DNA of 64,000 nt from Methanobrevibacter sp. YE315 (lineage in GTDB: Archaea; Methanobacteriota; Methanobacteria; Methanobacteriales; Methanobacteriaceae). The notes under the pieces were generated by a model. The model did not search any database. It had not been told where the DNA came from and saw only the letters and a program-made list of their open reading frames with translations. How positions within the stretch are numbered: the stretch's first letter is position 1; every line of letters begins with the position of its first letter. The stretch covers positions 500,001-564,000 of the forward strand of contig NZ_CP010834.1 in the NCBI RefSeq assembly GCF_001548675.1. The letters run 5' to 3'. The translations under genes were made by a program, and so were the position numbers. Below, one piece after another: positions 49,557-64,000 of this stretch.

Positions 49557-50021
49557 ATGGCTGTTAGTCCAGTTTTAATTATCAAAACTGATGAAAGTAC
49601 AATTAATGTTCGCGCAAGGTTATATGATGATTTTGCTGAACACGTAATTGTCTTAAATTCAGTTATTACATATTGGTGGGCTAATGATATGCCACCTGCC
49701 ATTAAATTTTTAGAGCTTCTAGATTCAGTAATCAAAAGAACAATTAATGAAATAATGCCTCATAAAATCTTAAATTTAAAATATGAGGTTACCGCTAATG
49801 AAATTCTTGAAAAAGCTTCTGAAATTGAAGTAAATTTGACTTCCGTTTCAGCAGATGATGTTGGCTTCAAAATTGAAGGTGGTTTGATTTCCTTAAAAAA
49901 CATGAGGAAAACTGAACCTGATTTTGAACCAAATTTATTTTCAACCACTTTTGATCACGTTATTGAAACTCCAGACATTGTTTTTAAGAAATATATGGAA
50001 ATGAAAGAAAAACAGTCTTAA
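49557..50021 (+). CDS. Unknown archaeal protein downstream of the CBS gene
   Basis: A 154-residue soluble protein with no recognised family. It has a helical middle and a mixed C-terminus (GLISLKNMRKTEPDF). Only seven bases separate it from the CBS gene, so it is probably co-expressed. It converges with the LarE-like gene with a four-base overlap. The operon context suggests nucleotide- or stress-linked function; this is inference. Confidence 0.5.
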   Translation: MAVSPVLIIKTDESTINVRARLYDDFAEHVIVLNSVITYWWANDMPPAIKFLELLDSVIKRTINEIMPHKILNLKYEVTANEILEKASEIEVNLTSVSADDVGFKIEGGLISLKNMRKTEPDFEPNLFSTTFDHVIETPDIVFKKYMEMKEKQS

Positions 50022-51028
50022 ACGTTTCTTCTTATGTTAGGTAATATCTGCATGAATTTATCTAATGCATTTTCATAATTTTCAAAATCATTTCCTTTTA
50101 TCAGTCCGGTATCAAAAATTTCAATGTTTTCTATGCATATCTTTTCTTTTGATTTGAAAATAATCTTATTTTCCAATTCTTTTTTTGTATTTTCAATGTT
50201 TATTGTGAATGGCAGTTTATATGAAAATGAACCTTCATCCCAGTCAATAGTTATGTCATCATTATCCTGGATTTCTGATAAATTTAAAGATACTTTTTCA
50301 TAACCTTGCCTTTTTAATTCATCGTTAATTTGTTTAAATTTATTGTCTTTGATTATTTCGTTGATGTCATCAACTTCACATAGACTAAGTGTTTCATTAT
50401 CTCTAACTTTTACTATTTTGCAGTCTGTATTGGCTAAAATGTAATCTTCACAACAACTTATCCTGTCAATTTTTTCCTTTGTCACTTTGGTGTCAGTTGG
50501 GATTCTGGTTGCAAGGCATGTTGTTGATTTGGAATAGGGAATATTGTTTTTATCGAGATATTCATGGATTTCTTTAGAAGTTAGCTTTGCTTCTATTAAT
50601 GGTGTTTCAAAGTTCTGGGCATATGTAATCAAAATTCCTGGCCTGTCATTGACCAGATCGCTGATGTTGTTTCCATCGCAAACAAAATCGTATCCCTTTT
50701 CAAAGGCAAGTTTCTTTATTTCGCTATACATTAAGTTTCTGCAGGTATAGCATCTTTTAGAATCATTGTTGAGAAAGGATTCGTCATCATAGAAATTAAT
50801 GTCGATAATCTCATGGTTTATGTTGAACAGGCCAGTTACATTTTTTGCATGCTCTATAAAGCCAGTGGGCATCAGATGATTGTCGATAGTGATGGCCAAC
50901 GTATTTTTTGCAACTTTTGAAGAAAGATATGCAATCAATGTTGAATCGGCACCGCCAGAAAAACCGACTGCAACATTTTTGTCTTTCAAAATCTTTTCAA
51001 CGATTTCAATTTTGTCTTCTAATTTCAT
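50018..51028 (-). CDS. LarE-like sacrificial sulfur transferase
   Basis: A 336-residue ATP-PPase. The P-loop is SGGADST (24-30). Cys93 and Cys96 form a CYTC pair, Cys171 in STTCLATR sits where LarE carries its sulfur-donating Cys, and Cys192-Cys193 follow. LarE proteins place sulfur on a nickel-pincer precursor; here no LarB or LarC is visible. About 60 C-terminal residues extend beyond the usual length. The gene overlaps the end of tfuA by four bases, and YcaO is next. A sulfur-delivery role for protein thioamidation is the attractive inference. Confidence 0.82.
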   Translation of the reverse strand: MKLEDKIEIVEKILKDKNVAVGFSGGADSTLIAYLSSKVAKNTLAITIDNHLMPTGFIEHAKNVTGLFNINHEIIDINFYDDESFLNNDSKRCYTCRNLMYSEIKKLAFEKGYDFVCDGNNISDLVNDRPGILITYAQNFETPLIEAKLTSKEIHEYLDKNNIPYSKSTTCLATRIPTDTKVTKEKIDRISCCEDYILANTDCKIVKVRDNETLSLCEVDDINEIIKDNKFKQINDELKRQGYEKVSLNLSEIQDNDDITIDWDEGSFSYKLPFTINIENTKKELENKIIFKSKEKICIENIEIFDTGLIKGNDFENYENALDKFMQILPNIRRNV

Positions 51029-51678
51029 TCTATCAAATTTTTAATGTGGTAAATTAATTCCTTTGCATCTTCCTTTTTAATGTCATCTGAAGTGCGGATA
51101 AAGTCAATCAACTGTGCTTTTTTATCATCGTTCAAGCCGGATTCGGCTAAAGTTTTGGCGTAGGTCCTTTGCGGATAAAAAGTTTCCTTGGTGATTTCAA
51201 TCAGTTCATCCTTTTCTGCTTCTGTGATGATGTTTTCACGAACGGAATTGCTGAAAACATAATCCATGCTTATTAAAGGCACGGAAAGAGCTTCCAATGT
51301 TTCTGAATCAAGCATTACAGCAACATCGTCATCAGATATGATATTGCCGCTCGCATATTCGTTGTAGCAATAGCCAATACCGACCATGCCCAAGCTATCG
51401 AGTTCTGATGCTCTTAAGGCACCCATGCTGGAAGCGCCGAATACTTTAACTCCTTTTTTCAGCACGTCAAGGATTTCCCTGTGGCCTACGGCGGAGTTTT
51501 GGTGAAATACTCCGTCGATTATCCCTATGATGTCAGGATTCTCTTTCATGTCATGGCCTAAATCGCCACGCTTTATTGGTCTTTTGTAGATTACTTCAAT
51601 ATCATCATGTGAATCTAAAATAGCTTTCGCTTCTTCAAAAGGAAGGGATAATCCAGTGTAGATTATGACTTTTACCAT
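51025..51678 (-). CDS. TfuA-like McrA thioamidation protein
   Basis: A 217-residue TfuA-domain protein; the GIIDGVFHQNSAVGHREIL and KVFGASSMGALRASEL segments are diagnostic. In methanogens TfuA works with YcaO to convert a glycine of methyl-coenzyme M reductase subunit A to thioglycine. It lies four bases after ycaO and overlaps the LarE-like gene, so the three are one transcript. Confidence 0.87.
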   Translation of the reverse strand: MVKVIIYTGLSLPFEEAKAILDSHDDIEVIYKRPIKRGDLGHDMKENPDIIGIIDGVFHQNSAVGHREILDVLKKGVKVFGASSMGALRASELDSLGMVGIGYCYNEYASGNIISDDDVAVMLDSETLEALSVPLISMDYVFSNSVRENIITEAEKDELIEITKETFYPQRTYAKTLAESGLNDDKKAQLIDFIRTSDDIKKEDAKELIYHIKNLIE

Positions 51679-51682
51679 TGTA

Positions 51683-52885
51683 TCATACTCTTAAAAATCT
51701 GTAGCCTGCACGTTCTGGATCAAGTGCATAAAGTTCCATTTCAGGAATGATTATTCTAACAACACTCACATCGAGCTCAGGTCTTGTCAAATCAGTATAT
51801 AAAATCTGTTTGATGTCATTTGCCATTAACTCTTCTTTAACAATATCAATATCTTCACTAACTGATGTTGTGGATTTGTTTTCAATGTCCTGAAGGTTAA
51901 TTTTCTCTTCTTCCTCTTTGAAATAGAACTTATTGATTCTTTTCATTCTTTCATAGCCTGCTTCGCGTGCAAAATCAGCTCTTACGGTATCTTCACGAGC
52001 ACCATTAATCTGTGTTGCTCTGCTTTGGGCAACTTCAGTCAATGCCCTTAGAATTGCAACTTCAGGATCCAGGTGTGTACCCATTCCTAAAGTCAAAAGA
52101 CCCGCATCCCTTGTAATGGTATCGTCAGCTGAAGCGGCTATTGTGGGGATTTCGATATCTGCTGTAAAATCCATTAATTTGATTTTGATGCCATTGGATT
52201 CGAATTTATCAATCGTTTCATTGATCAATTCACTTTCAATGCTGTCTGTATTGATTTGTGCATAATTTTTATGTGTCAATTCAAAGATGCTCCATGCATC
52301 CCTTTCAATAACCTCAAACATCCCATGTAATATTGCTTCTTCCAGGATATTTCCTGAAGCAAGGCCATTGGTATTTGACTTGAATAAGCTTTGTATGCTT
52401 GCGTCATGAGTGTAAGGATGAAAAACCGCATTTGATGGAACATAATAATCATTGCCCGAAATCAAATCATGAGCCAAATTCCATTCTAAAGTTAAATTTC
52501 CAATATCTTCTTTTTCGAATTTTTGAGGTAAATTCAAAGATTTTGGATTTACATAATCTCCCTTTTGGCCAATCTCGTCTATGGTTGCAATTATTGTTTC
52601 ATCACGGTCCTGTTTTTCAGCGGAGTATCTTTCGAAACCTTCCATCATCGCAGATGCTTTCGCATGGTCTTTTGAAACTCCTTTACCACCATAGATGCTG
52701 ATTGCACCATCTTCTGCAGTAGGTCTGATTGCAGTATAGACAGGCATTCCAATTCTATCCAAATCTGTAATGTCTGCTATACGTGTGATTCCGGCAGTTT
52801 TCAATTTATCTTCATTAATTTCGATTGTTTTTTTAGGAGCAATAATCCTATGAGTTCCTTCAAAATATGTAAGTTTTCCAGTCAT
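51683..52885 (-). CDS. ycaO: YcaO-type McrA-glycine thioamidation protein
   Basis: A 400-residue YcaO enzyme. The ATP-binding set is seen in ASAMMEGFERYSAE and in LHGMFEVIERDAW, which hold the conserved Glu and Arg residues. YcaO phosphorylates the peptide amide so that sulfide can replace oxygen. With TfuA next door and no peptide precursor gene nearby, the target is most likely McrA rather than a RiPP. One base separates its start from the M50 gene stop. Confidence 0.9.
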   Translation of the reverse strand: MTGKLTYFEGTHRIIAPKKTIEINEDKLKTAGITRIADITDLDRIGMPVYTAIRPTAEDGAISIYGGKGVSKDHAKASAMMEGFERYSAEKQDRDETIIATIDEIGQKGDYVNPKSLNLPQKFEKEDIGNLTLEWNLAHDLISGNDYYVPSNAVFHPYTHDASIQSLFKSNTNGLASGNILEEAILHGMFEVIERDAWSIFELTHKNYAQINTDSIESELINETIDKFESNGIKIKLMDFTADIEIPTIAASADDTITRDAGLLTLGMGTHLDPEVAILRALTEVAQSRATQINGAREDTVRADFAREAGYERMKRINKFYFKEEEEKINLQDIENKSTTSVSEDIDIVKEELMANDIKQILYTDLTRPELDVSVVRIIIPEMELYALDPERAGYRFLRV

Positions 52886-54596: not shown

Positions 54597-55235
54597 TCAG
54601 ATTTGGAATAGATCATCAACTGAATATTTAATGACATCTTTAACATTGGATTTTGCGCAAACCGCTAGTTTGTAGTCATTAAGGTCAAACAATGAAAATT
54701 TCAAATCGTCATTATCATTTTTAAGTCTGATTTCTTTGTCTAAAATTATTTCAAATTTATCTAAATCCAAGTTAAAACCCAAACCAGTATATTTCATATA
54801 GCTTTCTTTTAAAACCCAATATCTGAAGAATTCATCTTGGGGATTTTTGGATTTGATAATGTTTTTGTATTCGCTGTTAAAAAAGAAATTTTTCGCTATA
54901 TCCAATTCAATTGAATAATCTATTAGCTCAATATCAAGCCCAACTTCACGGTCGGATATTGCACAGGCAACCAGTTTGCCTGAGTGGCTTAGGTTAAAAT
55001 AAATATTTTCATAATTTGAGATGTATGCCTTACCAAATTCACCAATTTCAAAAATAGGATTCTCAATGCATTCTTCTTTAAGCAATTTATCTAAAAGAAA
55101 ATAAGCTCCAGCACTGAGTTTTTTATCTTTTTCAAATTTAAAGTTATCAACCTTATTTTTTCTAGTTTCAGGTAATAATCCATATGTTTTAGATAAATCT
55201 AACTCATCAATATTGCAATAAGCTACTTTTATCAT
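54597..55235 (-). CDS. 4'-phosphopantetheinyl transferase (Sfp type)
   Basis: A 212-residue Sfp-type PPTase that would turn apo carrier domains into the holo form. It shows FNLSHSG, VGLDIELID with the magnesium Asp and Glu, and YWVLKESYMKYTG. Archaea have no fatty acid synthase ACP, so the NRPS 900 bases away, with its two T domains, is the natural substrate. It converges with the M24 gene. Confidence 0.88.
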   Translation of the reverse strand: MIKVAYCNIDELDLSKTYGLLPETRKNKVDNFKFEKDKKLSAGAYFLLDKLLKEECIENPIFEIGEFGKAYISNYENIYFNLSHSGKLVACAISDREVGLDIELIDYSIELDIAKNFFFNSEYKNIIKSKNPQDEFFRYWVLKESYMKYTGLGFNLDLDKFEIILDKEIRLKNDNDDLKFSLFDLNDYKLAVCAKSNVKDVIKYSVDDLFQI

Positions 55236-55371
55236 GTTCTATCTCTATTTTATTTCTGCAAGGATGCTTAAAGAACTGGATAGGGAAATGATGATTCCAA
55301 AACATATAATGGGGGAAATTAAATGCTAAACAATAAATCAAAATAAAAAGTGTATTTAAGTTCTGATTTTA

Positions 55372-55749
55372 TTATTTCAATTTTTTAATAATTTTCAAAT
55401 GATTTTCTCCATTGACATGATTGTAATAAATGCCATCGGACAGTTCTTTTGTTAAAAATATTCCAAGACCCCCAATTCTAGCATCATCAATATCATAGGG
55501 GGGTTCAGGTTTTTCTTTAAGTAGAGGATTGAATTCTATGCCGTTGTCAATAAATTCAATTGTTAATGTAGTATCTTCACATTTCGCATTAACTTTAATG
55601 AGTTTTGTTTTTGAATAATTGACAATGTTGACAAAAATTTCTTCAATAATTAAATTTACCTGAAGGTTTTCTTCAGGAAGTTCATTTAAAATAAACTCGT
55701 TTAAAGTATATAATTCATTTAATTCTGGTTTTAGGGTTATTGAGTTCAT
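55372..55749 (-). CDS. RsbW/SpoIIAB-like ATP-binding protein
   Basis: A 125-residue GHKL ATPase of the anti-sigma kinase type. The N-box has Glu37 and Asn41 (IIEEIFVNIVN), the G1 box is DNG (68-70), and the G2 Gly-rich stretch is GGLGIFL (93-99). In bacteria such proteins bind a sigma factor and phosphorylate a STAS partner. The preceding STAS gene overlaps by four bases. Archaea lack these sigma factors, so the controlled target must differ. Confidence 0.83.
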   Translation of the reverse strand: MNSITLKPELNELYTLNEFILNELPEENLQVNLIIEEIFVNIVNYSKTKLIKVNAKCEDTTLTIEFIDNGIEFNPLLKEKPEPPYDIDDARIGGLGIFLTKELSDGIYYNHVNGENHLKIIKKLK

Positions 55750-56045
55750 TCTATCTTTAAGATTTTATCAAAACCGGACATTCTAAATATTTCACCGATT
55801 GTGTCGTTAACATTTGTAATAACAAATGGAATGTCATCTGCTTTTAATTTCTTTTGTGTTGAAATTAGAACTCTAAGTCCAGCACTTGAAATGTATTCTA
55901 CATCAGAAAAATCTAAGGTTAATGAGTCGAAATTACCCATTTCGTCTTGAATTTCTTTATCTAACTCTTGTGATGTGATAGTATCGATACGGCCTTCAAT
56001 ATTCAATGTTAATTCTTTTTCGTTGTAATTTTTTGTTATTTCCAT
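55746..56045 (-). CDS. STAS-domain anti-anti-sigma-like protein
   Basis: A 99-residue STAS protein of the RsbV/SpoIIAA kind. Ser54 in YISSAGLR aligns with the Ser phosphorylated by the kinase partner. The start at 56045 leaves AAGGG six bases upstream; an ATG six bases before touches that site. Coupled with the RsbW-like gene and divergent from the NRPS by 71 bases. Confidence 0.85.
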   Translation of the reverse strand: MEITKNYNEKELTLNIEGRIDTITSQELDKEIQDEMGNFDSLTLDFSDVEYISSAGLRVLISTQKKLKADDIPFVITNVNDTIGEIFRMSGFDKILKIE

Positions 56046-56116
56046 TTTCATCCCTTATTTCAAGTAAATTTAATTCTCAAAAAATATTAAATATTATTCA
56101 TATTATAATATATTTT
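56046..56116. promoter_or_regulatory. Divergent promoter region of the STAS/RsbW pair and the NRPS
   Basis: Seventy-one AT-rich bases. AAAATATTAAATATT at about 56077-56091 is placed about 30 bases before the NRPS ATG, with no Shine-Dalgarno, so the NRPS mRNA could be leaderless. The STAS gene has AAGGG on the other strand. Regulators could act on both genes here. Confidence 0.4.
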
Positions 56117-59100
56117 ATGGATGTTATAGTACAAAAGTATTATTATGATTTGATAAGTTCTTTTGATTTTGCAACTACAATTTCACCAGATGTAAAAGAT
56201 AAAGAAACAAAATATGAAATTAAATCAACTTATTATAATGAAAAAATTAAGGAACTAAAGAAAGAATTTGATTCTTCAGAAAGAGATCTTTTTTTATCAG
56301 TATTTTTATTTAATCTAGTCAAATTTTCATTTTCAAAAGATATTTTGATAGCTTACAATAAGCAAGCTGCAGGATATCATTTCGACACGGATTTGACTGT
56401 TGAAGAGTATATCTATGATTTCAAATCCCAATTTAAGGATTTTCATGATTATGATTATTTGGATTTTGAAAGCGAAATCCTATTTTCAACACAGGATTAC
56501 AATAAAGAAGATTACAAATTCATCTTTTCATATGATGAAAAGGAAATAACTGTCGAATATGATTCAGCATACTACTCCGATGAGCTGATTGACGCATTTT
56601 TATCTGCATTCAATGTCCTGATTGAAAAATTCAGCAGCAATCATCACGAATCATTAAAGAACATTTCCATCGTGGAAAACATTGATTTGGATGAAGGCTT
56701 TGAAGTCAAATTAGCAAATGAAGGATTGATAAATAAGATATTTGAAAATGCCGTTAGTGAAGATCCTGATAAGGTGATTTTATACACTGAAGATGGGGAA
56801 TTCACTTACGATGAGCTTAATAAAAAAGCCAATAGGATAGCTAATGCATTGCTCAAAAGGGGTCTTGAAGTTGAAGATAGGGTAATGCTCATGATGAGGC
56901 GTAACAGCGAATTGATAGCCAGCGTACTCGGTACTGTTAAAGCGGGTGGGGCATTCATCCCAATCGATCCGAACTATCCGAAACATAGAATTGACCAAAT
57001 GCTTGAAGATAGTGAATCCAAATTTGTTATAACCAATAAGGATGTTACCTACGAAGGCGAAAACGGAGTGCACGTATCAAAATTGCTTGAAGAAGAAGAT
57101 GATACAAATCCTGATGTTGAACTAACTCCTGATAACCTATGTTTCCTGATTTACACTTCAGGATCCACAGGAAAACCAAAAGGGGTCATGATTACACATA
57201 GGGGAATTTCCAATTATATTGCAAATCATCCGGAAAACGTTCCGATTTATGAACTCAACAGAAGATGTACTAAGTTCGTATCAATTTCCATGATTTCATT
57301 CATTGTATTTTTAAGAGAAATATTCGGAACAATCCTCAATGGTTTGCCGGTCGTATTTACCAATGATGAACAGCTTGTAAATCCATTGGAATTCTACAAG
57401 CTATTTAAGCAGCACAATGCTGATGCATTCGGTGGAACTCCAACAAGATTAATCGAATATTTAAGCATTAAGGAAATTCAAGAATTAGTGAAAGAATGTA
57501 AAATCATAGTTGTCGGGGGAGAAGGATTCCCTCCAATATTATATGACAGATTAAGAGAATTCACCGATGCGGATATCTACAACTCCTATGGGCCAACAGA
57601 GGTTACTATAGCTTCTCATTATAAATTAATCGACAGCAATGAGATTACTGCCGGTTGGAAGATGTTGAATGTTGTTGATAAGATAATGGATATTGACGGC
57701 AATCAGTTACCTCCTTATGTTCCCGGTGATGTCTATGTTGGCGGTGCGGGAATAGCCAGGGGTTATATTAACAATCCTGAACAAACCGAAAAGGTATTCA
57801 TGACTTTAAACGGAATTCCTTATTATAATACTGGTGACTACTGTAAAAAAGACAAAGACGGCGAATTATACGTTTTAGGTCGTAATGATGGACAGATTAA
57901 ACTCAGAGGATTAAGAATCGAACCTTCAGAAATTGAAACATTGATTGCGAAATTTGACAATGTTCTGATTTCAAAAGTGTTGATTAAGAAGGTCAATGAA
58001 ACAGATTATCTGTGCGCATATTTCACAGCAACTGAGAAAATAAATATTGAAGATTTAAAACAGCATTTATTAGATAATCTGCCTGCATATATGCTTCCAT
58101 CATTCTTCACACAATTGGATGCATTTCCAAAAACTCCAAATGGAAAGACAGACTTCAAAAACTTGCCTGATCCTCAATTGGATATGGAAGAGTTCATCGA
58201 TCCTAGAAATGATATTGAACAAGGAATATTTGACATTGTTTCTGAATTGTTAGGCACAGACGATTTCGGTATAAACACAGACTTATTTAAAGTTGGTTTG
58301 ACTTCATTATCTGTAGTTCAGCTAGTTTCTGCCGTTTATGAGCAATTCAATACACAATTGATGGTTACCGACGTGATGAAATATAAAACCATTGAAAATA
58401 TTGCTAAACATATTAATTTCGTTGAAGAGGAGTCACAAGATTTACAGGATTTATATCCATTAACTCAGAATCAATTGGGAGTTTACTTTGATTGTTTGAA
58501 AAATCCGGAAAAACTATCATATAATATTCCTAAAAAAATCGAGTTTAATTCTGAAATCGATGCGGATAAATTAAAACAGGCAATTTGCAAAGCTATTGAT
58601 AACCACCCTTATCTAAAAGCAAAAATCGTGATGTATGAAGGTGGAGTTTATCAACAAAGAAGGGAAATTGAAGTTGATGATTTAATTGAAATTGTCGATG
58701 GTGAAGTTGACATTAAAGACTTTATAAAACCATTCAATCTTGAAGAGGACTTGTTATTCAGATTTAAAATTGTAAATAGTTCAGTTTTACTTGCTGATTT
58801 CCACCATATAATTGTTGACGGTACTTCATTAAACATATTGTTTGATGAAATTGCAAAAATCTATGATGGCAAGGAATATGAATTGGAAGAAGTGGATGGT
58901 TTCGATTATTCATTAAATGAGGCCAAAATTGAAAGTTCTTCAATGTATAAAGAATCAGAACTATTTTTCTTCAATAAAATTAAAGAGTTTGATGAAGCAA
59001 CTTTAATGACTCCTGATTTGAGTGGTGATGAGCATGAGGGTGTTGGTTTAGAGAAGATTCTTTCTTTAGACAAAAATCGTATTGATGATTTCTGTAATAA

Positions 59101-62100
59101 AGTGTCTATCACTCAAAATAATTTATTCTTGGCGGCAACCTCTTTTGTATTGTCCAAATTTGCTTATGATAAGAATTTATTGATTGCAACAATAACTAAT
59201 GGTAGGTTCAATCCAAATCAGCAAAAAACATTGGCAATGATGGTTAAAACACTGCCATTGGCTTTGAATTTAAATTCTGATTTAACTATTGCAGAGTTCT
59301 TTGAATATATAAATAAGGAATGGTTTGATGTATTGTCCCATTCTTCTTATCCTTTAACAAAAATTTCCGATGGATATGGAATTGTTCCGGAATTCGTCTA
59401 TGCATTCCACGGCAATATTGTTGAAGATATTGAAATTGCAGGACAAACTGTCAAAAGACAGTCTTTAGATGAAGATAATCTTAAGTTTAAATTAAACTTA
59501 AATGTTGTTGAAAATGGCGGCGAATATGATGTTTCAATGAAATATAATGATCAATTATATTCCTCTTCATTAATTCAAACATTTTTAGATAGTTTTTCAG
59601 TAATTATAAACAAATTCACAACTTTCAGTCAAGATACTCCTCTGAAAGACATTTCAATTGTTGATTCTAAAGATTTATCAATTGATGATTTGGATTTCCA
59701 AGAGTTGGAGGAGTATAGGTTAAATAAAATATTTGAGAAACAAGTTGAATTGCATCCTGATGAAATTGCAATATATGCTGAAGATGGAGATTATACATTC
59801 AGCGAAATAAATACCAGAGCAAATAAAATAGCTAATGCACTTATTAAACGAGGTGTTGGAGCGGAAGACAAAGTGATGTTTATATTAAAACGTGACAGTA
59901 ATGTTTTCGCTTCCATATTTGGTATTCTAAAATCAGGAGCCGCTTTCATACCTGTGGATTCAGATTATCCTAAAGACAGGGTTGAACATGTTTTAACTGA
60001 CAGTGACGCTAAATTTATCATTATTGACGATATTGTTGATATTAAAAATATTGATTTAAGCGAATATTCAGACAACCTTATACAAATTTCAGAATTGCTT
60101 GAGGAGACTGATGACTCTAACCCGGACCCTGAGTTAAAAGGTGACAATCTCGCATATATCATCTACACTTCCGGTTCAACCGGTCTTCCAAAAGGTGTAA
60201 TGATAGAACACAGAAACCTCGCAAACTTCGTCTATCCTGATCCTAGAAGTGTTTATACTTATGAATTAGCAACTAATGGTAAAAAAGAAGGATATATAGC
60301 TTTATCTATTTCCACAGTTGCATTTGACATGTTACATCAAGAAACAATGACAGCATTAATGAATGGAATTCCAATCGCATTTGCCAATGATGTTGAATAT
60401 AAGGATTCTTTAGCATTATGTGAATTAATTAAAAGGACTGGTGCAAACGTTTATAGTGGAACTCCATCACGTCTATTACATTATTTTGAATTAGAAGATT
60501 TAGGTAAAGAATTTTCTAAATTTAAGATTTTATCTATTGGTGGAGAAGGATTCCCTCCACAATTACTGGATATTTTGGATAATCTTGATGCTAAAGTCTA
60601 TAATATGTATGGACCTACTGAAACAACAGTTGTCTGTAATGCACACCTGATTGATGATGGAAAACTCAATATAGGTAAACCTTATTTCAATGTTTTTGAA
60701 AGCATTATGGATTTAGATGGAAATCCTCTGCCTCCAAATGTAATGGGTGAATTGTATATTGCAGGAGGGGGTGTTTCAAGAGGTTATCTTAATCGCCCAG
60801 AAAATAATGCAAAAGCATATGTGGAAATTAATGGAATTAGATTCTACAGGTCCGGAGATTATGCTAAAGTGGATGAAGATGGAAATATTTCTATCCATGG
60901 ACGTTTAGATAATCAAATTAAATTAAGAGGTTTGAGAATAGAAATTGGTGAAATCGAATCAGTTATCTCTGAATTTGAACCTATTAACTCTGTTGCCGTA
61001 GTTGTTAAAAAGATTAAAAATAATGATCATTTGTGCGCATATTTCACAGTTAATGAAAAATATAAAGCTAAATATCGTGATTCAAATGAATTTTCATTTG
61101 ATATTGAAGAATTAAAAGCTGTTCTTTCTGAAAAATTAACATATTATATGGTTCCTACAGTTTATATGGAATTAGATGAAATGCCGCAAACTTTAAACGG
61201 CAAAACTGATTTGAAAAATCTCCCTGAGCCGGAATTAATCTCAGAGTATGTCGCCCCTAAAAATGAAGTTGAAGGATTCTTTGCAAACGTATTTGCAGAA
61301 ATTTTGGATCTTGATGAAGTAAGCGTAACCGATAATTTCTTTGAAATTGGTGGTACTTCTCTTCTTGTAACTAAAATTACAATGGAGGCTTTAAATAGGG
61401 GTTATGAATTAACTTATGGTGATGTATTTAAAAATCCTACTCCAAGATTGCTTTCAGAACTGATTTCATCAAATCATTTCACAGAATCTAGTGAGGAAAT
61501 CAAATATGATTATTCAGGCATTGACAACTTGTTAAAGAAAAACAATCTAACCTCATTTATAAATGGTGAATTGGAAGATGATTTAGGTGATGTCTTATTA
61601 ACCGGAGCTACTGGATTTTTAGGAATTCACGTTTTAAGAGAACTTTTAGAAAGTGAGACAGGTAAGATTTATTGTTTATTAAGATCCAAAGCACATTTAT
61701 CTGCTACTGATAGACTTAAATCTTTAGTATTCTATTATTTTGAAGATAGCGTTGATGAAAACATATTTGATGAAAGAGTAGAAGTAATTGAAGGAGACAT
61801 TACTGACTTCAAGTATTTTGAAAATATCGTCTCATTAAATATCGATACTGTTGTCAATTGTGCTGCAAATGTAAAGCATTTCTCATCTGGAACTGATATT
61901 GAAGATATCAATTTAGGTGGGGTAATTAATGGATTGAAATTCGCTAAAATGAAAAATGCCAAATACGTTCAAGTTTCAACATATAGTGTTGCTGGAGAAA
62001 GTATTAATAATTTCCCACCATTGGATGTTGCTTTTACTGAAAACGACTTGTTCATTGGTCAGGGAATTGATAATCAGTATATTAGCAGCAAATTCCTGGC

Positions 62101-62695
62101 CGAAAGGGCAGTGCTTGAAGCTGCTGTAGAAGACGATTTGGATGTTAAAATAATGAGAGTAGGTAATTTGATGGCCAGAAGCTCTGATAGTGAATTCCAA
62201 ATCAATTTCGAATCTAATGGATTTATCAATCGTTTAAAAGCATTCATTACTATGGGCAAAATGCCATATGAAATGCTTTCAAATAATGTGGAATTCAGTC
62301 AGATCGACAGGACTGCAAAATCAATTATTGCATTGGCTAAAACACCGAAAGATTGTGTTGTTTTCCATCCGTACAATTCCCACAATATTACTTTTGCAGA
62401 TATAATTGAGATAATAAGGCCTTTAGGTTTAATAATCGACCCTTGTGAAGATGAAGAATATGAAAATGCTTTAAAAGAGGCATTGGCAGATAAATCCAAA
62501 CAGGATGGTGTTTCAGGTTTAATAACTTCAGTCGGATCAGGTAAAGTTAAAAAACAATGGTTGGCTGTTGACAATAATTATACAACACAGGTATTATATC
62601 GTTTAGGAATTAATTGGCCTTTAATTTCTGAAAAATATATTTATACCTTTGTCAAATACTTGGATGATTTAGACTTCTTTAATGTGGGCGATTAA
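56117..62695 (+). CDS. Two-module NRPS with terminal reductase and truncated first C domain
   Basis: A 2192-residue synthetase. Residues 1-190 match only the C-terminal half of a condensation domain and lack the HHxxxDG site. A1 (about 200-690) has YTSGSTGKPKG (346-356), SYGPTE, NTGD and Lys677; carrier T1 has Ser730. The full C domain (778-1190) has HHIIVDG (896-902). A2 (1200-1705) has YTSGSTGLPKG; T2 has Ser1748. A thioester-reductase domain follows, with TGATGFLG (1829-1836) and Tyr1988/Lys1992. A2 keeps the amino-group Asp (Asp1404) but A1 has Ile396 there. ATG 56117 is chosen; the upstream open frame runs over the STAS gene. Product and substrates unknown; a two-residue aldehyde or derivative is expected from the layout. 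Confidence 0.9.
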   Translation: MDVIVQKYYYDLISSFDFATTISPDVKDKETKYEIKSTYYNEKIKELKKEFDSSERDLFLSVFLFNLVKFSFSKDILIAYNKQAAGYHFDTDLTVEEYIYDFKSQFKDFHDYDYLDFESEILFSTQDYNKEDYKFIFSYDEKEITVEYDSAYYSDELIDAFLSAFNVLIEKFSSNHHESLKNISIVENIDLDEGFEVKLANEGLINKIFENAVSEDPDKVILYTEDGEFTYDELNKKANRIANALLKRGLEVEDRVMLMMRRNSELIASVLGTVKAGGAFIPIDPNYPKHRIDQMLEDSESKFVITNKDVTYEGENGVHVSKLLEEEDDTNPDVELTPDNLCFLIYTSGSTGKPKGVMITHRGISNYIANHPENVPIYELNRRCTKFVSISMISFIVFLREIFGTILNGLPVVFTNDEQLVNPLEFYKLFKQHNADAFGGTPTRLIEYLSIKEIQELVKECKIIVVGGEGFPPILYDRLREFTDADIYNSYGPTEVTIASHYKLIDSNEITAGWKMLNVVDKIMDIDGNQLPPYVPGDVYVGGAGIARGYINNPEQTEKVFMTLNGIPYYNTGDYCKKDKDGELYVLGRNDGQIKLRGLRIEPSEIETLIAKFDNVLISKVLIKKVNETDYLCAYFTATEKINIEDLKQHLLDNLPAYMLPSFFTQLDAFPKTPNGKTDFKNLPDPQLDMEEFIDPRNDIEQGIFDIVSELLGTDDFGINTDLFKVGLTSLSVVQLVSAVYEQFNTQLMVTDVMKYKTIENIAKHINFVEEESQDLQDLYPLTQNQLGVYFDCLKNPEKLSYNIPKKIEFNSEIDADKLKQAICKAIDNHPYLKAKIVMYEGGVYQQRREIEVDDLIEIVDGEVDIKDFIKPFNLEEDLLFRFKIVNSSVLLADFHHIIVDGTSLNILFDEIAKIYDGKEYELEEVDGFDYSLNEAKIESSSMYKESELFFFNKIKEFDEATLMTPDLSGDEHEGVGLEKILSLDKNRIDDFCNKVSITQNNLFLAATSFVLSKFAYDKNLLIATITNGRFNPNQQKTLAMMVKTLPLALNLNSDLTIAEFFEYINKEWFDVLSHSSYPLTKISDGYGIVPEFVYAFHGNIVEDIEIAGQTVKRQSLDEDNLKFKLNLNVVENGGEYDVSMKYNDQLYSSSLIQTFLDSFSVIINKFTTFSQDTPLKDISIVDSKDLSIDDLDFQELEEYRLNKIFEKQVELHPDEIAIYAEDGDYTFSEINTRANKIANALIKRGVGAEDKVMFILKRDSNVFASIFGILKSGAAFIPVDSDYPKDRVEHVLTDSDAKFIIIDDIVDIKNIDLSEYSDNLIQISELLEETDDSNPDPELKGDNLAYIIYTSGSTGLPKGVMIEHRNLANFVYPDPRSVYTYELATNGKKEGYIALSISTVAFDMLHQETMTALMNGIPIAFANDVEYKDSLALCELIKRTGANVYSGTPSRLLHYFELEDLGKEFSKFKILSIGGEGFPPQLLDILDNLDAKVYNMYGPTETTVVCNAHLIDDGKLNIGKPYFNVFESIMDLDGNPLPPNVMGELYIAGGGVSRGYLNRPENNAKAYVEINGIRFYRSGDYAKVDEDGNISIHGRLDNQIKLRGLRIEIGEIESVISEFEPINSVAVVVKKIKNNDHLCAYFTVNEKYKAKYRDSNEFSFDIEELKAVLSEKLTYYMVPTVYMELDEMPQTLNGKTDLKNLPEPELISEYVAPKNEVEGFFANVFAEILDLDEVSVTDNFFEIGGTSLLVTKITMEALNRGYELTYGDVFKNPTPRLLSELISSNHFTESSEEIKYDYSGIDNLLKKNNLTSFINGELEDDLGDVLLTGATGFLGIHVLRELLESETGKIYCLLRSKAHLSATDRLKSLVFYYFEDSVDENIFDERVEVIEGDITDFKYFENIVSLNIDTVVNCAANVKHFSSGTDIEDINLGGVINGLKFAKMKNAKYVQVSTYSVAGESINNFPPLDVAFTENDLFIGQGIDNQYISSKFLAERAVLEAAVEDDLDVKIMRVGNLMARSSDSEFQINFESNGFINRLKAFITMGKMPYEMLSNNVEFSQIDRTAKSIIALAKTPKDCVVFHPYNSHNITFADIIEIIRPLGLIIDPCEDEEYENALKEALADKSKQDGVSGLITSVGSGKVKKQWLAVDNNYTTQVLYRLGINWPLISEKYIYTFVKYLDDLDFFNVGD

Positions 62696-64000
62696 ATTGT
62701 ATGTCCGTAATTATAAATTATTAAGTGGTAAATTTAGGGAATTTTTCTTCCCTACACTTCTCACCTCTATGACAGGGAATATATGTATGGTTGTAGACTC
62801 CATTATCATCAGTAATCTGATAGGAGCTATGGCATTATCAGCTATTCAACCGGTTATTCCACTAAGTACTTCCGTTAATTTAGTTTATTGGATGATAGGT
62901 TTAGGTGGAAGTGTATTATGTTCAATTGCAAAAGCAGAGTTCGATACTGAAAGAAGCAATAGAATATTTTCGGTTTCGATAATAGCCTTACTTGTGTTTG
63001 GAATACTGGTAGCGATTTTAGGCACACTATTTTCAAGTCAGGTTGTACAGGTGCTGTGTTCCTCACCGCAAATTCAACCTTTTGTTTTACAGTATTATAG
63101 TGTTTATGTTTTAGGAATGCCATTTCTATGTTATATTATGAGTTTATCATACTTTATCAGAACCGATGGATTGGTGAATTTGCCGTTTAGGGCATTATTA
63201 TTGTCTAATGTAATCAATATCATATTTGATATTATTTTCATTGGAGTATTTAATTTAGGCATTTCTGGTGCCGCATGGGCGACAATTGTGGGTTATATTT
63301 TTGGTTGCACTTATATGTCCACATATTTCTTCAATTCACAAAGAACATTGGAATTTATTTCTGTTAAAGCAAAAACATTTGTATCTGTTCTTTCAGATAT
63401 TTGCAAGTCCGGATTTTCAGGTGCATCAACACAATTGTACCTGACTATAAAAATCTTTGTAATAAATACTCTAATTACATTATACATAGGACAATCCGGT
63501 TTGGCAGCTTTCAATATATGTTATAATAGTTTATTCATTCTTTACATGTTTTTAATCGGTACAGCACAAACAATGTCCCCTATTGTGTCCGTCTATTACC
63601 AGGAAGAGGATTATCAAAGTGTTGATTATATAAGGAATAAATCTTTAAAGATTGTTTTGACTTCAAGTTTAATATTCTCTTTGCTGCTTATTGTCTATCC
63701 TCAAATTTTATTAGTCTTATTCCATGTTAAAAATCCTGCAGACGTTCCTATTGTATTGAATGCGGTTAGAATATATGCAATTAGTTATGTGGGAATAGCA
63801 ATTACATTCTTATATACTTTTTATGCTCAAGCTATCCAGCAGAATAATCTATCTAATACAATATCCCTACTTGAAGGGGTCGTATTCCCTGTAGCATTCG
63901 CATGCGCATTATCATATTTATTTGGCGCTAATGGAATTTGGATTTCTTTCACAATAGCAGAAATACTTACAATATTGTATATATTTGTTTATTCAAAACA
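62682..64000 (+). CDS. MATE-family efflux transporter, partial at window end
   Basis: At least 439 residues of a MATE/MatE multidrug exporter, cut off by the window edge. It begins MWAIKLYVRNYK at ATG 62682, 14 bases inside the NRPS end, so it is translated by coupling. The FPTLLTSMTGNICMVVDSI and later GISGAAWATIVGY segments are MATE hallmarks and many membrane segments are visible. Given its position it probably exports the NRPS product. Confidence 0.88.
   Translation, partial: MWAIKLYVRNYKLLSGKFREFFFPTLLTSMTGNICMVVDSIIISNLIGAMALSAIQPVIPLSTSVNLVYWMIGLGGSVLCSIAKAEFDTERSNRIFSVSIIALLVFGILVAILGTLFSSQVVQVLCSSPQIQPFVLQYYSVYVLGMPFLCYIMSLSYFIRTDGLVNLPFRALLLSNVINIIFDIIFIGVFNLGISGAAWATIVGYIFGCTYMSTYFFNSQRTLEFISVKAKTFVSVLSDICKSGFSGASTQLYLTIKIFVINTLITLYIGQSGLAAFNICYNSLFILYMFLIGTAQTMSPIVSVYYQEEDYQSVDYIRNKSLKIVLTSSLIFSLLLIVYPQILLVLFHVKNPADVPIVLNAVRIYAISYVGIAITFLYTFYAQAIQQNNLSNTISLLEGVVFPVAFACALSYLFGANGIWISFTIAEILTILYIFVYSK

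Follow-up and report, generated by a model that had tools for sequence, protein, structure and literature searches.

The locus at positions 54597-64000 of a 64,000-nucleotide stretch of DNA (the window; C1:500001-564000) was analyzed in the complete genome of Methanobrevibacter sp. YE315 (2,273,296 bp). By Pfam it holds genes for a 4'-phosphopantetheinyl transferase (PPTase), an RsbW-like kinase, a STAS protein, a nonribosomal peptide synthetase (NRPS) with adenylation (A), carrier (T), condensation (C) and reductase (R) domains in the order A-T-C-A-T-R, and a MATE exporter. The exporter was found to carry a C-terminal RsbW-like domain that has probably lost kinase activity. We propose, with confidence and doubt in about equal measure, that the product of the locus is a small reduced acyl-amino-acid or dipeptide compound, exported by a MATE protein that is under partner-switch control. 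The relatives of the host genome are rumen and gut Methanobrevibacter, which agrees with the host-associated methanogen named in a preliminary description of the window.

A MATE exporter with a fused RsbW-like domain

Reading on beyond position 64000, as the preliminary description had advised, gave a MATE protein of 580 amino acids (aa) and revealed the fused domain:

C1:564020-564418 (20-418 bp beyond the window end), plus strand, RsbW-like C-terminal domain of the MATE exporter (weak match to PF13581)

Most other MATEs of the host genome are of about 456-488 aa and have no extension. The RsbW-like extension was present in all 14 complete orthologous MATEs. The fused domain was aligned to the profile of the locus RsbW with hhalign (E 1.1e-9), and the 11 diverse fused domains examined, bacterial ones included, all matched PF13581 (best 1.9e-9). 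Searches of the PDB by sequence with the fused domain returned chance matches only, and fold comparison was used instead. Since the model of the full-length MATE was moderate (predicted local distance difference test, pLDDT, 69.6), the fused domain was folded separately with AlphaFold2 (AF2; pLDDT 81). The top 17 PDB matches of this model in Foldseek were all SpoIIAB, UsfX or RsbW.

The nucleotide-binding motifs were then compared. The GxG of the ATP lid was lost in 40 of 40 fused domains, whereas it was kept in 20 of 20 free-standing RsbWs; the full set of motifs, comprising Glu and Asn in the N-box, Asp in G1 and the lid GxG, was intact in 20 of 20 of the latter and in none of the 40 fused domains. 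Because the ATP-lid GxG is lost, the fused domain is probably no kinase. It nevertheless has the fold with which STAS partners are bound in known complexes. The domain could alternatively still sense nucleotides or act as a kinase, coupling export to the ATP/ADP level independently of STAS. A GHKL fold and the N-box and G1 residues retained in 25 of the 40 fused domains would suit such a role; the GxG, however, is missing throughout, and neither the Mg-binding Asn nor the adenine-binding Asp survives in the bacterial fusions (L088-L090) or in most of the ATP-grasp-linked ones described below. This alternative is considered quite improbable.

Substitution rates of the fused domain (dN about 0.13, dS above 1.6) reveal purifying selection, and it is at least 60% identical among aligned orthologues, which argues against a passive relic. 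Percent identity hinted at a clearly stronger conservation than in the rest of the MATE, but pN was only slightly lower (0.118 vs 0.136), and the idea was dropped. No description of a MATE-RsbW fusion was found in the open-access literature.

Locus organization and partner-switch components

The elements of the locus are as follows:

54597-55235, minus strand, PPTase, Sfp/AcpT-type (PF01648, 57 bits)
55372-55749, minus strand, Ser kinase of the RsbW/SpoIIAB type, N-box, G1 and GxG all preserved (PF13581, HATPase_c_2, 55.7 bits; motif alignment)
55746-56051, minus strand, STAS protein of the RsbV/SpoIIAA type with the conserved S-S-A-G-L phosphoacceptor motif (PF01740, 59.9 bits)
56052-56116, no strand, AT-rich divergent intergenic region of 65 bp between the STAS and NRPS genes
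56117-62695, plus strand, NRPS of 2192 aa, halfC-A1-T1-C-A2-T2-R (Pfam; start from sister species)
62682-64000, ending at genome C1:564424, plus strand, MATE exporter (PF01554; start 62682 or TTG 62697)

The open reading frame (ORF) of the NRPS is open from 56006, and ATG 56117 is the start it has in common with two sister species. The exporter gene, with two MatE repeats (PF01554, two stretches), follows directly, so that the linkage given in the preliminary description holds. Its "coupling by 14 bases" agrees with the overlapping ORF calls (62682 vs the stop at 62695), but orthologous MATEs begin at the codon that corresponds to TTG 62697 here, a start that permits near-abutment; either arrangement is possible. 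Promoter and terminator scans gave scores at chance level, the scans being of the sigma70 type. The local PPTase already noted was the only ACPS-superfamily gene of the host (one match in a genome-wide search) and is for this reason expected to serve every NRPS of the cell. Its best NCBIfam model was AusB (NF047349), at 81 bits for a cut-off of 225.

The partner-switch regulators that had been recognized in the window were borne out by Pfam matches and by their intact kinase and phosphoacceptor motifs. A genome-wide search found one free-standing RsbW in the host, the locus protein at 55372-55749. Two STAS domains were found, both at NRPS-MATE loci, and three SpoIIE proteins, none of them at the window locus; one SpoIIE gene adjoins the second STAS gene and the second NRPS-MATE locus. 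The earlier statement that all accessory parts lie in one place does not hold for the SpoIIE phosphatase, which is encoded elsewhere in the genome. A SpoIIE gene was present at 11 of the 15 orthologous loci fetched; the PPTase-RsbW gap of the window is 136 bp, and no convincing SpoIIE remnant was found there.

Partner switches are best known for regulating sigma factors. The host has the same three families as the bacterial RsbU-RsbV-RsbW and SpoIIE-SpoIIAA-SpoIIAB systems, with the kinase and phosphoacceptor motifs intact. It differs from them in that no sigma70 region 2 (PF04542) was found in its genome, the control search being positive in ten bacteria, and in an extra fourth part, the exporter with the dead RsbW domain. 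With one free RsbW and no sigma70 region 2, no RsbW-type target other than the fused MATE was found in the host.

A rather unlikely alternative is an ordinary AusAB-like synthetase of pyrazinones or dipeptide aldehydes, in which RsbW and STAS control transcription through an archaeal target, with the MATE extension left over as a passive relic. The RsbW, STAS and SpoIIE genes do adjoin the divergent promoter region in most orthologues, and for M. ruminantium M1 Leahy et al. suggested that NRPS expression is regulated (PMC2812497). The missing sigma70 region 2 speaks against transcriptional control, as does the selection on the fused domain against a relic; the synthetase part of the alternative is weighed with the A domains below.

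Two other NRPS frames were seen in the host genome, one of 8,206 aa (C1:1449064-1473684, minus strand) and one of 10,815 aa (811711-844158, plus strand). Both would be served by the single PPTase. Behind the first comes a MATE of 560 aa, and STAS and SpoIIE genes are nearby. Seven huge proteins were listed for Methanobrevibacter sp. YE315 in a survey (PMC11573180). At window positions 50018-52885, adjacent putative LarE-like, TfuA and YcaO genes were identified by eye, a pattern expected for methanogen thioamide formation.

Domain structure and descent of the NRPS

The following domains were assigned within the NRPS:

56132-56749, plus strand, half condensation domain, C-lobe only, without HHxxxDG (profile-profile match, prob 98.7, E 2.7e-16)
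56759-58216, plus strand, A1 adenylation domain (Pfam AMP-binding), pocket SFIVFLRE with Ile at the Asp235 position, the same in all orthologues
58226-58414, plus strand, T1 carrier domain (PF00550)
58445-59668, plus strand, condensation domain, HHIIVDG intact (PF00668, 180 bits)
59732-61204, plus strand, A2 adenylation domain (Pfam AMP-binding), Asp235 present
61300-61500 (limits approximate), plus strand, T2 carrier domain (PF00550, second stretch; GGTSL at NRPS aa 1740)
61598-62323, plus strand, thioester reductase domain (PF07993, NAD_binding_4, 120 bits)

The catalytic motifs are unbroken: HHxxxDG in C, the Ser in both T domains, and TGATGFLG, Thr and YxxxK in R. An archaeal NRPS with reductive release, as first described, is thus upheld by the Pfam domains and the R motifs.

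The half C domain (about 200 aa), which the preliminary description does not mention, precedes A1 in 16 of 16 aligned orthologues. The N-terminal 200 aa had also been considered as an unrelated leader, which was rejected, since they match the C-lobe of the NRPS family's own internal C domain; no match to the upstream C1 domain was obtained, and a PDB profile search was also empty. The aligned orthologues of about 2600 aa begin with a full first C domain (QHILLDG), followed by the half C and then A1-T1-C-A2-T2-R. This first domain is present in 13 of the aligned orthologues and absent from the window NRPS and two sister species. Judged by domain content, the window NRPS is a descendant of a C-halfC-A-T-C-A-T-R enzyme, by loss of the first condensation domain. 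With the first C lost and the half C kept, the A-T-C-A-T-R order is here secondary, not a directly inherited AusA arrangement.

The loss removed about 430 aa, and this, the missing SpoIIE gene and a decayed locus in a relative (G030, below) could mean that the window copy is degenerating and no longer functional. We give this reading a slight chance: the two sister species with the same loss are diverged (78-79% identity) and have intact frames of 2190 aa, and every remaining catalytic motif of the window NRPS is intact.

Adenylation pockets and likely product

Asp235 of NRPS adenylation domains normally binds the substrate alpha-amine. The unusual A1 pocket pointed out in the preliminary description was confirmed: Ile stands at the position of Asp235 in 16 of 16 aligned orthologues, the window NRPS among them, as well as in two further genomes (G081 and G112). 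Because A1 has no Asp235, a non-alpha-amino starter is likely; A1 probably takes a starter without a normal alpha-amine, and the exact substrate cannot be read from the A1 code. A pyrazinone needs this alpha-amine and is therefore disfavoured. The pyrazinone product suggested earlier thus appears doubtful.

In the A2 core the window sequence is closer to that at L038 (72-86%) than to those of the sister species (47-71%), and outside this core the NRPS resembles its sister species. The core was swapped between lineages, and the A2 difference is attributed to recombination there. The starter unit appears to be constant and the second building block to vary.

The A-T-C-A-T-R order and a dedicated PPTase are shared with AusA/AusB, the aureusimine system of Staphylococcus aureus (PMC12153313), and AusA and AusB are the best NCBIfam models for the window proteins. 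Both scores are far under the cut-offs, however (1016 vs 2500 bits for the NRPS with the AusA model NF047350), and A1 lacks Asp235, whereas AusA A1 takes Val. The window also differs in its half C in front of A1 and its linked MATE and partner switch. Equating the NRPS with AusA-type enzymes, as had been done, is not supported.

Distribution in related genomes

An NRPS orthologue, essentially full length and of 66-79% identity, was found in 28 of 60 genomes of the genus, besides the host. The usual order in the genus is PPTase-SpoIIE-RsbW-STAS, divergent from NRPS-MATE. Both the NRPS and the fused domain occurred in 42, neither in 14 and only one of them in 4 of the 60 genomes (Fisher 5.5e-10), counts that ignore shared ancestry and, the species being relatives, are not independent. 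Draft genomes among the relatives can hide neighbour genes. In G030, which is among the mismatched genomes, a remnant of the locus (L127:7739-9047) consists of adjoining truncated pieces of the PPTase and MATE genes; the NRPS and regulators are gone.

Of 20 genera sampled from the phylum, 11 gave matches to the fused-domain profile. In other methanogen genera the fused MATE occurred with NRPS, STAS, RsbW and SpoIIE (L110, L114, L115) or with a GH3 amide synthetase, STAS, RsbW and SpoIIE (L120). It was also found in L104-L109, L111-L113, L116, L117, L119 and L123, nearly all adjoining a protein of about 565 aa of the ATP-grasp type, assigned by Pfam in L104 only and by matching N-termini at the other loci. 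Two further loci (L121:7737-9872 and L122:10531-12666) encode a GH3-type amide synthetase with a fused RsbW domain that looks intact, adjoined by STAS, MATE-RsbW and two SpoIIE genes.

Among bacterial contigs, a MATE fusion lies beside SpoIIE and RsbW in L089 (Oscillospiraceae) and beside SpoIIE, RsbW and STAS in L090, with no NRPS in the stretches examined. A Treponema contig (L088:8152-11793) has two tandem MATE-RsbW units as a single 1213-aa frame. The fused domain was not found on plasmids.

The fused domain might also act as a decoy that titrates STAS from RsbW, or dimerizes with RsbW, the transporter being the sensor and soluble RsbW having another output. Fold and linkage fit this equally well, and the GH3-RsbW fusion would be another possible kind of output. 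Set against it are the single free RsbW and missing sigma70 region 2 of the host, where no other RsbW-type target was found, and it is considered very improbable.

Relation to described archaeal systems

Novelty of the locus as such is not supported, since it adds a member to a family already in the literature: the mru_0066-0071 locus of M. ruminantium M1, described in 2010, has an NRPS with thioester reductase (mru_0068), MatE, serine phosphatases and an anti-sigma antagonist (PMC2812497). Rumen Methanobrevibacter genomes often contain NRPS clusters (PMC8241843). The new features are the exporter with its dead kinase domain and, around it, a partner switch without a sigma factor. The M1 locus shares with the window an NRPS of the C-A-T-C-A-T-thioester reductase type, STAS and MatE, and has SpoIIE phosphatases. 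The window NRPS, by comparison, is without the first full C domain, and its PPTase and RsbW are local, whereas the M1 counterparts are at mru_0514/0516. G081, from gene content and order most likely M1, has a 2690-aa NRPS with the same A1 motif and 66% identity over 2243 aa.

After lauric acid treatment of M1, mru_0069 (MatE), mru_0352, mru_0351 and the PPTase mru_0514 were up (table values 1.06-1.64) (PMC5816558); since these genes rise, loci related to the window locus are expressed. M. arboriphilus DH1 likewise has an archaeal NRPS with an adjoining PPTase; by its description it stands apart, the NRPS being 43-49% identical to other archaeal NRPSs and no switch being described (PMC5467289). 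No report of the product of these methanogen NRPSs was found.

Proposed mechanism and significance

In the proposed mechanism, the PPTase would prime T1 and T2, and A1 would load a substrate without a normal alpha-amine, such as a hydroxy, keto, aryl or beta-amino acid. A2 would load an amino acid, which C would join to the A1 unit; R would release the aldehyde or alcohol, and MATE would export the product. SpoIIE encoded elsewhere and RsbW would set the phosphorylation state of STAS. We infer that unphosphorylated STAS would dock on the dead RsbW-like domain of MATE and so open or close the exporter, in either direction. The output of the switch would be a transporter and not a sigma factor; no sigma factor was found. 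The fusion suggests that the partner switch acts on the exporter post-translationally, and not on transcription.

Several observations weigh against this proposal, in addition to the shared ancestry behind the co-occurrence counts. Fused domains at the genus level retain Glu and Asn in the N-box as well as Asp in G1, and may still bind nucleotide to some degree. The ATP-grasp-linked fusions have no adjacent STAS or RsbW, and control there would need action in trans. In G007, a close relative, the MATE is replaced while STAS, RsbW and SpoIIE remain: ATP-grasp, GH3, ATP-grasp and ABC transporter genes follow the NRPS in its place (L035:12941-20000). The coupling of exporter and switch is thus not absolute. 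In G081 the MATE is frameshifted at the start of the RsbW-like domain (L132:13818-15553; 486 aa plus 92 aa). The annotated protein would be without most of the domain, which may explain why the fusion escaped notice.

More widely, we tentatively suggest, at slightly less than even confidence, that in methanogens and in some gut bacteria SpoIIE-RsbW-STAS switches gate MATE exporters directly by way of a fused dead RsbW, a general signal-release module that works with amide-forming enzymes of several kinds (NRPS, GH3 and ATP-grasp). We know of no explained output for partner switches in sigma-less archaea. If true, the suggestion would explain the role of anti-sigma machinery in organisms without sigma factors, and the dead RsbW domain on the exporter would be a concrete, testable output for an archaeal partner switch. 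It would provide protein-level on/off control of small-molecule secretion, and it would mark a family of methanogen loci as probable rumen and gut producers of exported signals or inhibitors.

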